DNA of 64,000 nt from NCBI RefSeq assembly GCF_041320605.1, contig NZ_CP166679.1:1798001-1862000 (forward strand), written 5' to 3'. Under the pieces are notes generated by a model that made no database searches, was not told the origin of the DNA, and worked only from the letters and a program-made list of their open reading frames with translations. This document shows, in pieces, positions 23,650 to 28,398 of this stretch (positions are counted from its first letter, which is position 1; the number at the start of each line of letters is the position of its first letter). The stretch comes from Arenibacter antarcticus (GTDB taxonomy: Bacteria > Bacteroidota > Bacteroidia > Flavobacteriales > Flavobacteriaceae). The position numbers and the translations under genes are program-made.

Positions 23650-25185
23650 GTGAAGAAGTACTTAAACCTTTTTGATTTTAGTCAGAAAGTAAATTATAAA
23701 ACTGAAATTTTAGCAGGGCTCACGGTGGCAATGACAATGATACCAGAGTCTCTTTCCTTCGCTATTTTAGCGGGATTGTCGCCTTTAACGGGACTTTATG
23801 CAGCTTTCTTAATGGGTATCGTGACCGCGATTTTTGGTGGAAGACCAGGGATGGTTTCTGGTGGAGCTGGTGCTACGGTTGTTGTTTTAATCGCATTGGC
23901 CAATTCTCATGGTGTAGAGTATCTGTTTGCAGCTGTCGCCTTAGCTGGAGTGCTCCAATTATTGGTTGGTCTGTTTAAATTGGGGAAATTTGTTCGCCTA
24001 ATTCCGCAACCTGTAATGTTTGGTTTTTTAAATGGACTTGCAGTGATTATTTTTATGGCACAGGTAGCTCAATTTAAAACATCGGAAAACGGTATTGATG
24101 GTTGGATGGAAGGTTCTGCATTATATGTAATGGCAGGCTTAACCCTCTTAACCATTGCAATTGTTGCCATATTGCCAAAGATCACTAAAGCTGTTCCTGC
24201 TTCATTAGTAGCCATATTGGTTGTATTTGGAGTTGTCTTTTTCTTTGACATAGACACCAAAAAAGTATTTGATATTGCTTCGGTAAGTGGCTCGTTGCCA
24301 TCATTCCATATCCCAGAAATTCCTTTTAATTTTGAGACCCTGATGGTTATTTTTCCATATGCATTGGTCATGGCAGGTGTTGGACTTATTGAATCCCTTT
24401 TAACGCTTAATATGGTAGACGAGATTACCAATACTAGGGGGCAATCAAATAGAGAAGCTGCCGCACAAGGTATAGCGAATATTACCAACGGATTTTTTGG
24501 TGGAATGGGAGGATGTGCTATGGTAGCTCAAACTTTGGTAAATGTCGGTTCTGGAGCAAGAGCAAGGCTTTCTGCTATTATAGGTGCACTTACCATATTG
24601 CTGATTATTTTATTTGGTGGACCTGTAATTGAACAAATTCCGATGGCTGCTCTGGTGGGAGTGATGATGGTCGTTGCCATAGGAACTTTTGAGTGGATAA
24701 GTTTTAGAGTAATCAACAAGATGCCTAAACATGACATTTTTGTTTTGATATTAGTTGCTGTGGTTACCGTTGTATTGCACAATCTGGCTTTGGCAGTATT
24801 GATTGGGGTAATCATTTCTTCCTTGGTATTCGCCTGGGAAAGCGCTAAACGTATTAGGGCAAGAAAACATATAGACGAAAATGGGGTTAAGCATTATGAA
24901 ATATACGGCCCGCTTTTCTTTGGTTCCACCGCTACATTTATCGAAAAATTTGATGTGGAAAGCGACCCCGATGAGGTTGTTATTGACTTTAAGGAAAGTA
25001 AGGTGGTAGATATGTCGGCTATAGATGCCCTGAATAAAATCACTGCAAAATATCAAAAAGAAGGTAAAACATTACACTTGAGATATTTGAGCCCCGATTG
25101 CTTAAAGCTATTGACAAATGCGGAAAGTGTTATTGAGGTGAATATCATAGAAGACCCTACTTATAGAGTAATGATCAGTAAATAA
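23650..25185 (+). CDS. SulP-family anion transporter with STAS domain
   Basis: 511 residues using a GTG start (MKKYLNLFDFSQKVNYKTEILAGL, the usual N-terminus of this group). About eleven to fourteen membrane segments cover residues 20-400, with the SulP hallmark AMTMIPESLSFAILAGLSPLTGLYAAF early on. The C-terminal 100 residues form a short STAS domain (FFGSTATFIEKF, VIDFKESKVVDMSAIDAL). Family members carry sulfate, bicarbonate or other anions; the substrate cannot be read from the sequence. A strong terminator follows at 25250-25295. Confidence 0.93.
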   Translation: MKKYLNLFDFSQKVNYKTEILAGLTVAMTMIPESLSFAILAGLSPLTGLYAAFLMGIVTAIFGGRPGMVSGGAGATVVVLIALANSHGVEYLFAAVALAGVLQLLVGLFKLGKFVRLIPQPVMFGFLNGLAVIIFMAQVAQFKTSENGIDGWMEGSALYVMAGLTLLTIAIVAILPKITKAVPASLVAILVVFGVVFFFDIDTKKVFDIASVSGSLPSFHIPEIPFNFETLMVIFPYALVMAGVGLIESLLTLNMVDEITNTRGQSNREAAAQGIANITNGFFGGMGGCAMVAQTLVNVGSGARARLSAIIGALTILLIILFGGPVIEQIPMAALVGVMMVVAIGTFEWISFRVINKMPKHDIFVLILVAVVTVVLHNLALAVLIGVIISSLVFAWESAKRIRARKHIDENGVKHYEIYGPLFFGSTATFIEKFDVESDPDEVVIDFKESKVVDMSAIDALNKITAKYQKEGKTLHLRYLSPDCLKLLTNAESVIEVNIIEDPTYRVMISK

Positions 25186-25249
25186 GGATTGTACCTTATC
25201 AAAAAAATTAAAGGCTTACCAAGTAGAGACGGCAAGGCTTTATAGTAGC

Positions 25250-25295
25250 AAAAAACGCTGGTCGGTAACCAAAGTTTCCAACCAGCGTTTTTTAT
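25250..25295. terminator. Bidirectional terminator between SulP and cytochrome c genes
   Basis: AAAAAACGCTGGT at 25250-25262 pairs with ACCAGCGTTTTTT at 25281-25293. The long perfect stem has A- and T-runs on both sides, so it works on either strand between the converging genes. Confidence 0.9.
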
Positions 25296-25310
25296 TAATA
25301 CTGTTTAATT

Positions 25311-26806: not shown

Positions 26807-27781
26807 TTATTTTGGATAGGTTTCCAAGAGTTTTGTTTGTTCTTCTATAGAAGATTTGAATTCCGATTTTAAGGTGCCTATCAATTCGGATACGGTGGGA
26901 ACATTATTTATAGTAGTGACTCCCTGTCCGGCAGACCAGATGGTTTTCCACGCCTTGGCCTCAGTATTTAATTCCTTTCCAAAGTCTATTTTCATATCTT
27001 TTTTTAAATCAGCTTCGGTAATTCCCGCTGCTTTTAAACTGGCACCTAGGAAATTGGCATGTACTCCGGAGATGGCTGCGGTATAGACCACGTCATCCGC
27101 TCCAGAATCAATAATCATTTTCCGGTACTCTTCAGGGGCTTTGCTTTCCTTGGTGTTGATAAAACGAGTCCCCATATACGCCAAGTCTGCACCCATTTGA
27201 AGTGCAGTAGCGATATCTCTCCCAGTGCTGAGACATCCAGAGAGCAAAATAGTCTTATTGTAAAATTTCTTAATTTCAGCCACTAGGGAAATGGGGTTGA
27301 TGGTGCCTGCATGTCCGCCCGCTCCTGCTGCCACCAGGATCAATCCATCTACCCCTGCTTCTGCCGCTTTCTCGGCATGGCGCTTCTTAATAATATCATG
27401 GAATACCAATCCGCCATAGCTGTGCACGGCATCGACTAATTGGGCAACTGCTCCCAAAGAGGTGATTATTAAAGGAACCTTGTGTTTAATGCATATTTTT
27501 AAATCGGCCTCCAGCCTGGGGTTGGTAGGATGTACAATTAAGTTTACACCAAAAGGAGCTGTTTTTTTTCCAGTTTCCTTCTCAAAGTCGTTTAGTGCCG
27601 TTTTAATCGCTATCACCCATTCCTCAAAACCTTCGGTGGTACGTTGATTTAGTGCGGGAAATGTCCCTACAATTCCGTTTTTACAACACTCTATAACCAG
27701 TTGGGGTCCCGATATCAGAAACATGGGGGCCGCTACTGCAGGTAGGGAAAGATCTTTAATGAAAGCTGCTTTGTTGCTCAT
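26807..27781 (-). CDS. Nitronate monooxygenase (2-nitropropane dioxygenase family)
   Basis: 324 residues starting MSNKAAFIKDLSLPAVAAPMFLIS. An FMN-dependent TIM-barrel enzyme that oxidises alkyl nitronates such as the toxin propionate-3-nitronate. Seen are the N-terminal PMFLISGPQL, ITSLGAV, HDIIKKRHAEKAAEAGVDGLILVAAGAGGHAG (FMN phosphate loop with the catalytic-type His) and GADLAYMGTRFI. The ATG at 27779-27781 is chosen; the frame is open to 27820. Upstream lies a 42-bp palindrome shared with the divergent thioesterase gene. Confidence 0.88.
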   Translation of the reverse strand: MSNKAAFIKDLSLPAVAAPMFLISGPQLVIECCKNGIVGTFPALNQRTTEGFEEWVIAIKTALNDFEKETGKKTAPFGVNLIVHPTNPRLEADLKICIKHKVPLIITSLGAVAQLVDAVHSYGGLVFHDIIKKRHAEKAAEAGVDGLILVAAGAGGHAGTINPISLVAEIKKFYNKTILLSGCLSTGRDIATALQMGADLAYMGTRFINTKESKAPEEYRKMIIDSGADDVVYTAAISGVHANFLGASLKAAGITEADLKKDMKIDFGKELNTEAKAWKTIWSAGQGVTTINNVPTVSELIGTLKSEFKSSIEEQTKLLETYPK

Positions 27782-27864
27782 ATGGATTTGTATTTTACGA
27801 AATTGATTTAATGCTGGCACTTAAGATTTGTAAGTAAAAAAGGAATTTTTCTCCAAAACTGTGC

Positions 27865-27906
27865 TACTTTTGAAAATGTTATGCATGCATAACATTTTCA
27901 AAAGTA
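27865..27906. promoter_or_regulatory. Perfect 42-bp palindrome with mirror-image promoter boxes
   Basis: The 21-base left half is the exact reverse complement of the right half, with no spacer; the centre is ATGCAT. The outer eight bases read TACTTTTG on each strand, a perfect TAnnTTTG box, so each arm could drive transcription across the centre toward the gene on its far side. It lies 83 bases before the nitronate monooxygenase start and 15 bases before the thioesterase start. No TTG was found at the standard distance on either side. A large protein-binding operator or a leader hairpin are the main explanations. Confidence 0.75.
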
Positions 27907-27921
27907 CTAAATAATATAAGG

Positions 27922-28398
27922 ATGTTTATAAAAGATTTCGAAATTCGTTGGAGTGATGTGGATGCCAATGGTCATATGGCCAATTCTGCTTATATAAATT
28001 TTATGAGCCATACCCGAATGGCCTTTTTATTGGAAATGGGGTTTAATCAGCAGACCATGGCCACCCATAATATTGGACCGGTAGTATTCCACGAACATGT
28101 CTATTATTTTAAAGAAGCCTTTTTAGGGAAGCCAGTTAAGGTATCCTTGGAGGTAATGGGATTAAGTGAGGACGGAATGTTTTTTGAATTCCATCACAAC
28201 TTTTATGACACAAAGGGGAGAAATTTTGCCCATTGTCAGATTATGGGGGCTTGGATAGATTTAACAACTAGGAGCCTCATTGGGTTGGGGGAAGAGTTTT
28301 TAGGGATGTTTAACGAGATACCCAAAGGGGATGAGTTTAAGGTTTTGACTAGGGAAGATACCCGTAAATTTGCGGTGCGGCCTAAGGACCTAGCCTAG
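27922..28398 (+). CDS. Acyl-CoA thioesterase, hot-dog fold (4HBT/FadM-like)
   Basis: 158 residues: MFIKDFEIRWSDVDANGHMANSAYINFMSHTR. The RWSDVDANGHMANSAY segment carries the 4-hydroxybenzoyl-CoA thioesterase-type catalytic Asp. The rest matches a single hot-dog domain (VKVSLEVMGLSEDGMFFEFHHNFYD). It probably hydrolyses acyl-CoA thioesters in the cytosol. An AAGG lies just before the ATG. Its tail overlaps the converging EamA transporter gene by 17 bases. Confidence 0.87.
   Translation: MFIKDFEIRWSDVDANGHMANSAYINFMSHTRMAFLLEMGFNQQTMATHNIGPVVFHEHVYYFKEAFLGKPVKVSLEVMGLSEDGMFFEFHHNFYDTKGRNFAHCQIMGAWIDLTTRSLIGLGEEFLGMFNEIPKGDEFKVLTREDTRKFAVRPKDLA

Follow-up and report, generated by a model that had tools for sequence, protein, structure and literature searches.

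A perfect 42-bp palindrome between divergent genes of Arenibacter is a predicted MarR operator within two putative face-to-face promoters

The window that we analyzed is a stretch of 64,000 nucleotides from Arenibacter antarcticus (contig NZ_CP166679.1, positions 1,798,001 to 1,862,000). Within it, two genes diverge from a gap of 140 bp between their start codons. The leftward gene (26807..27781, minus strand, with its ATG at 27781) encodes an FMN enzyme of 324 amino acids from the nitronate monooxygenase (NMO) family (PF03060, E = 8.9e-24). It is also weakly FabK-like, as it matches the FabK model TIGR03151 with E = 1.6e-24, far under the model's cut-off. The rightward gene (27922..28398, plus strand) encodes a hot-dog thioesterase of 158 amino acids (PF13279, 4HBT_2, E = 2.4e-22) that is weakly YbgC/FadM-like (TIGR00051, E = 2.2e-12, under that model's cut-off) and is 92% identical to the protein of A. 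latericius, which is among the nearest named relatives. These are the two functions that the initial annotation had assigned to the flanking genes.

The gap contains a perfect 42-bp palindrome (27865..27906, without strand). A direct check of the sequence found that it consists of TACTTTTGAAAATGTTATGCA and then its own exact reverse complement, without a spacer, and with its centre between 27885 and 27886. Given the window's own base composition, just 3.4e-8 perfect half-arms of 21 bp are expected per window (8.7e-8 with the base composition of 27701-28000), and the next longest perfect half-arms in the window are 9 and 8, so the palindrome is indeed far beyond chance, as had been claimed. An assembly artefact is very unlikely because perfect palindromes of 42-46 bp (half-arms of 21-23) lie in the same gap of 11 other Arenibacter genomes; with 12 of the 18 assemblies of the genus in agreement, we rejected this explanation. 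The palindrome has nested parts: a core (TATGC..GCATA), a predicted operator of 26 bp, and two TAnnTTTG boxes that face inwards. Elsewhere in the window, a second inverted repeat (25243-25300; 27-nt arms that are 81% complementary, with a 4-nt loop) lies directly after the end of a transporter-like ORF (23650-25185) and may be a terminator.

The outer eight bases of the palindrome read TACTTTTG on both strands, which fits TAnnTTTG, just as the initial annotation had it. The rightward copy (27865..27872, plus strand) is the predicted -7 box of the thioesterase gene, based on its position across loci: it lies 13-15 nt before the 14-bp core in all 18 genomes of the genus and, if TAnnTTTA is allowed, in 19 of 19 loci from other genera that have both the operator and an adjacent NMO gene. 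The mirror copy (27899..27906, minus strand) is the predicted -7 box of the NMO/FabK-like gene. It lies at the mirror distance (k = 13/14, where k counts letters from the centre) in 16 of the 18 genus genomes; in the two basal genomes the leftward box is at k = 8, abutting the core, as it is in 4 of the 19 loci from other genera. TAnnTTTG elements are present on both strands of one symmetric sequence, as would be expected of a bidirectional promoter. By eye, we saw no -33 element at either promoter.

Because the -7 box is at -12 to -5 in mapped promoters of F. psychrophilum, according to passages of one study (PMC9723704), we predict that the thioesterase transcript starts at 27877 (plus strand), with a leader of 45 nt, and that the NMO transcript starts at 27894 (minus strand), with a leader of 113 nt. 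Two such transcripts would overlap by 18 nt. Since the predicted operator of 26 bp spans both of these starts, a dimer on it would block the two promoters at once.

The core recurs in a restricted set of places. In its own genome, the 14-bp core TTATGCATGCATAA has three exact sites: the palindrome itself, a site upstream of a MarR gene, and a site between a ceramidase-like gene and a PKD/SusC locus. If two mismatches are allowed, there are 24 matches in all as compared to 14 for the control, so sites with two mismatches in this genome are probably mostly due to chance. Each of the 18 genus genomes has 2-7 sites for the 12-bp core TATGCATGCATA, while the reversed control has no match in any of them. 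The exact 14-mer is present in 75 of 149 genomes of Flavobacteriaceae and its reversed control in 2 of 149, and the core is conserved across this family and beyond.

The MarR gene (G000:C1:3958387-3958836) has fadB- and fadA-like genes just downstream, with one small ORF between; the order marR-fadB-fadA was read in this genome. (At L012:7822-8178, between these fadB- and fadA-like genes, there is a short ORF that by eye resembles the four-helix protein of 23S rRNA intervening sequences.) The regulator is a MarR protein by Pfam (PF01047, 41.9 bits against a cut-off of 24.6), by sequence search of the PDB, and by its predicted fold: the model (pLDDT of 79.6, from a 26-row alignment) matches MarR-fold proteins, such as MepR, SarZ, and HcaR, with TM scores of 0.54-0.69. 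None of the NCBIfam subfamily models reached its cut-off for this protein.

MarR matches are found in 141 of the 149 genomes from the family. Exact sites are present in 75 of these 141 genomes and in none of the 8 genomes without a MarR match (one-sided P = 0.003), although those 8 include several small or incomplete genomes. The exact site is absent from the other 66 of the 141 genomes; variants of it occur. We read 70 regions upstream of marR, one per genus, out of 141 genera with a match. These were the 30 best matches and 40 of the other 111, which were chosen as every second one by rank (56 were picked and the last 16 were left out), so that the weakest matches are under-represented. All 70 regions contain the site with at most three mismatches (29 exact, 19 with one mismatch, 20 with two, and 2 with three), as compared to 10 of 350 base-shuffled control regions. 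The site has a near-fixed place, lying 47-62 bp upstream of the gene in 63 of the 70. In 65 of the 70 regions a TAnnTTTG box comes next, at most 20 nt from the operator; at marR, the operator is directly upstream of the -7 box. Some genera appear to have a second, tandem copy of the operator upstream of marR (G083, G045, G048, G123, L240, L249, and L250).

Outside of the family, we read 11 loci, and all 11 have a site with at most three mismatches within 300 bp upstream of marR, as counted without a shuffled control. (Of 36 matches in the search across the phylum, 17 were from other families, and 11 of these 17 had loci.) This search gave 30 loci in all, and 23 of the 24 that were read had the site with at most three mismatches. 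The exception, L239, does not count as a test because this locus is shortened and its coordinates are inconsistent. Of the six loci that were left out, five are from genomes already among the 70 and the sixth is L241.

The sites upstream of marR also indicate how far the operator extends. The letters 2-6 from the centre (TATGC..GCATA) are invariant in all 70 sites, and letter 1 is A or G. Mirror covariation is seen at k = 8 and at k = 10-13 (permutation P = 0.001, 0 of 2000, 0.005, 0.027, and 0.011, uncorrected for 20 positions) and none was seen beyond 13 on either side. From this covariation we predict an operator of 26 bp, or 13 on each side of the centre (27873..27898, without strand). The initial annotation had proposed that the palindrome might be a bidirectional promoter as well as a single operator. 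The shared conserved core and the two symmetric -7 boxes are in keeping with this, but the predicted operator is just about 26 bp of the 42.

This arrangement, a winged-helix MarR regulator with a conserved palindromic site in its own promoter region, would be that of the autoregulated operators of the MarR family, and the predicted fold and the location of the site are like those of E. coli MarR, MepR, and SlyA. The core here is TATGCATGCATA.

The genes beside other copies of the core are often related to fatty acid degradation. In A. antarcticus, etfB has a close variant of the core upstream of it, as does a pair of genes for a TonB receptor and a GDSL hydrolase. The etfB site is present in all 18 Arenibacter genomes and differs from CTATGCATGCATAG by 0-3 mismatches. 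Three further sites in the genus are in front of genes for flavoenzymes of the FadH/OYE type, of which two were scanned. Across the family, we considered one exact site from each of 29 of the 75 genomes that have it. These sites adjoin marR (11), a homologue of the NMO (7), a TonB receptor (2), etfB (1), or a GDSL hydrolase (1), while 7 of the 29 adjoin none of these reference genes. In a profile scan, one of those 7 sites had a FabH-like neighbour and one had an M3 peptidase neighbour. The exact core at L011 (G000:C1:2569826), between the ceramidase-like gene (a weak match, below the Pfam cut-off) and the PKD/SusC locus, suggests that lipid scavenging might be under the same control.

The NMO homologues beside the operator in 7 of the 29 family genomes form a second NMO/FabK-like group, just 28-34% identical to the window's NMO (L069, L070, L075, L079, L081, L085, and L090, considering the first site of each genome). 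Both of the two (of seven) that were scanned against profiles belong to PF03060, with FabK as the best NCBIfam model, below its cut-off. This suggests that the NMO/FabK-like flavoenzymes next to the operator may act on enoyl-CoAs during fatty acid breakdown instead of on nitronates. Adjacent divergent NMO and thioesterase genes also occur without the operator, in 6 of 25 loci from other genera (L051, L052, L053, L059, L061, and L066, among them named Muriicola and Robiginitalea). The other 12 of the 37 loci that we considered from other genera lack an adjacent NMO gene (11 have no match in the DNA examined and one has its NMO gene over 1 kb away).

Taken together, these comparisons make us fairly confident that the palindrome is the shared operator of an acyl-CoA-responsive MarR repressor, set inside two face-to-face sigma-A promoters. 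We propose that a dimer of the MarR-type protein G000:C1:3958387-3958836 binds the central 26 bp of the palindrome, where it would cover the start sites of the FabK/NMO-like and FadM-like thioesterase genes and block both. The positions of the operator at the palindrome and at marR both suit a repressor. A fatty acid, most likely as its acyl-CoA, would release the regulator, and this would induce both of these accessory beta-oxidation genes along with the predicted operon marR-fadB-fadA, etfB, and the outer-membrane TonB receptor/GDSL-hydrolase locus. The choice of acyl-CoA as the putative ligand is by analogy to E. coli FadR. In F. psychrophilum, passages of the study mentioned above report that beta-oxidation genes are strongly up-regulated with fish mucus and plasma (PMC9723704), which is in line with inducible control.

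How the arms came to be perfectly matched is a separate question, and our confidence in the operator and its regulator does not extend to it. The extended symmetry was seen only in Arenibacter: upstream of the thioesterase gene in the 37 loci from other genera, the longest perfect half-arm is 9. The outer 8 bp on each side do appear to be promoter boxes, as annotated, but we saw their full symmetry in one genus only. The 12 genus genomes with a perfect palindrome have four arm sequences between them: the window's (in one genome), two that are found in five genomes each, and one in a single genome. The differences between these four types are mirrored, including the free letters of the box and an indel in the spacer. 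Across the genus, the 'nn' of the box on both sides is CT in 6 genomes (including the window's), CA in 6, and TA in 1, and is unequal in 5. The arms are mismatched in 6 genomes, with 5 arm types, and these include the two closest species (A. latericius and A. certesii, as judged by eye from matching gap sequence), which have kept the operator and have only a quasi-palindrome. Absence of the palindrome from close relatives had been named as grounds for doubting it, and the outcome is mixed: it is perfect in 12 of the 18 genomes, but reduced to a quasi-palindrome around an intact operator in the two nearest.

A tree from the coding parts places G158 and G162 as basal in the genus, with the rest grouped with modest support (80/68). 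When 9 of the 18 genomes are aligned, the right arm is seen to be 5-6 nt longer than in the two basal genomes. The 6 additional nucleotides of A. aquaticus (G151, identified by eye) equal the left spacer of the basal genomes, AAAATA, in reverse complement. A match of 6 nt in AT-rich DNA is weak if taken alone. We rejected the idea that the right arm is a wholesale inverted copy of the left arm because the box and the bases downstream of it align with the basal genomes. With a leftward box already at k = 8 in these genomes, there is no need to assume that the mirrored one was newly copied, and this fits a short correction into register. So we retain a narrower claim, in which a short insertion would have brought the right arm into mirror register and the arms were later matched.

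Specifically, quasipalindrome correction, or template switching during replication, may have shifted the right arm into mirror register with its partner in the lineage of Arenibacter and may then have restored the match in several species. Meanwhile, the NMO gene's old promoter, which was back-to-back, would have decayed. Mutation itself would then have made, and would continue to re-match, a mirror-symmetric bidirectional promoter: the palindromic operator would let one arm be copied onto the other during replication, a second box would come under the same repressor with a matching register, and the two promoters would since have changed together in several species. We hold this proposal tentatively, at a little under an even chance. 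The permutation evidence for it is mixed. When right arms were shuffled over the 18 genomes, 0 of 20,000 shuffles reached the observed closeness, but this ignores kinship. If the 18 genomes are reduced to 9 arm types, then the arms are identical in 4 of the 9, which is reached by 120 of 362,880 permutations, while the distance between the two arms of a genome, summed over types, is not significantly reduced (27,482 of 362,880 permutations, P = 0.076). The perfect types therefore support concerted change of the arms, whereas the quasi-palindromic types do not.

Alternatively, selection alone might have driven both arms independently, if the two genes require equally strong promoters and an identical geometry of box and operator. 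Boxes and spacers both have a function, every locus with the operator has the left box 13-15 nt before the core, and the lack of significance for the summed distance over types, with 5 of the 9 types mismatched, is also what selection would allow. However, the mirrored letters include the free 'nn' of TAnnTTTG as well as the spacer indel. Furthermore, the marR and etfB sites in the same 18 genomes have different arms, with perfect symmetry that reaches to 17 letters at most for marR and to 14 for etfB, so a genome-wide change in the operator's specificity does not explain the matched arms, and we rejected it as their cause. We consider independent selection, the main rival to template switching, to be quite possible, although somewhat short of an even chance. 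The initial annotation had argued that perfect palindromes without a loop are unstable and that retention of this one implies a selected role in binding. The conserved core does point to such a role, but the argument from instability was overstated, as the arms may have been matched by mutation itself. (The passages that we searched in one review, PMC7999016, give no length limit for the stability of palindromes.)

A second alternative concerns the NMO gene, which might be driven from elsewhere, by a back-to-back box or some other promoter, with the MarR operator serving only the thioesterase promoter and the box in the right arm idle. A back-to-back leftward box (CAAAnnTA) lies at -25/-26 from the core in both of the basal genus genomes and in 14 of the 19 operator loci from other genera. 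It reads TAGTTTTG in the basal relatives, and the window contains CAGTTTTG (27854..27861, minus strand), which is one letter off the consensus and is, judging from CAAAnnTA in the relatives, the probable remnant of the ancestral box. Also, three genomes (G153, G156, and G163) have another leftward match at -43, and matches to a box are weak evidence on their own. Yet the old box has no exact match in any of the 16 derived genomes of the genus, while the box in the right arm is present in all 16. We therefore think it unlikely that the NMO gene is driven from elsewhere.

Could a different regulator bind the palindrome? Some of the sites are next to genes that have no obvious connection to fatty acids. 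But the site is upstream of marR in all of the 70 genera and 11 loci from other families that were read, and the 8 family genomes that lack a MarR match also lack exact sites, so we consider a different regulator to be very unlikely. A FadR operator of the GntR type was rejected as well: on reading, the site aaCTGGTCnGACC(T/A)Gtt is not matched, and the proposed regulator is a MarR protein. Least probable of all is that the palindrome acts as an RNA hairpin (an attenuator or terminator) in either leader or in both, or that it is a mobile, REP-like palindromic repeat: the 42 nt would fold at -21.3 kcal/mol if transcribed whole (z = -9.0), but transcripts from 27877 and 27894 would each hold just the inner 7-bp stem at their 5' ends, not the hairpin that had been predicted for either leader, and their folds are no better than those of shuffles (z = 0.58 and -0.94), while the few copies of the 12-bp core in each genome are mostly beside the same few genes.

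The MarR operator that we propose has parallels in E. coli. As described in passages of PMC9329746, E. coli FadR (of the GntR family) has a palindromic operator over the starts of fad genes and is released by acyl-CoA, which here is the predicted ligand, and its regulon includes fadBA, the thioesterase gene fadM, and fadH, which encodes the dienoyl-CoA reductase. Those passages also state that FadR itself is not autoregulated. In contrast, the predicted regulator in Arenibacter is of the MarR type, has the operator in its own promoter, and has fadB- and fadA-like genes just downstream; and its operator bears no relation to the 17-bp site of FadR.

The bidirectional promoters of E. coli also have symmetric sequences that are predicted to drive divergent RNAs, so that polymerases could compete, but that study describes them as pseudo-symmetrical (Warman et al. 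2026, PMC12825309). Here all 42 bp are perfectly symmetric, the putative operator lies between two inward-facing boxes, and the predicted RNAs overlap by 18 nt. As for the arms, template switching creates and mends perfect stems, through inverted copying of one arm, and leads to double changes that look compensatory; such stems are described for RNA genes (Monttinen and Loytynoja 2022, PMC8794818), while here the stem would belong to bacterial DNA and would hold an operator together with a pair of promoter boxes. Judging by titles and the beginnings of abstracts, we found no paper that describes this operator or its regulator, and among the matches listed by a loose search there was none on template switching shaping operators.

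In summary, the palindrome and its relatives provide a concrete and testable operator and regulator for fatty acid breakdown in Bacteroidia. The series of asymmetric, quasi-palindromic, and perfect sites within one genus also offers a natural setting in which to ask whether template switching shapes regulatory DNA.
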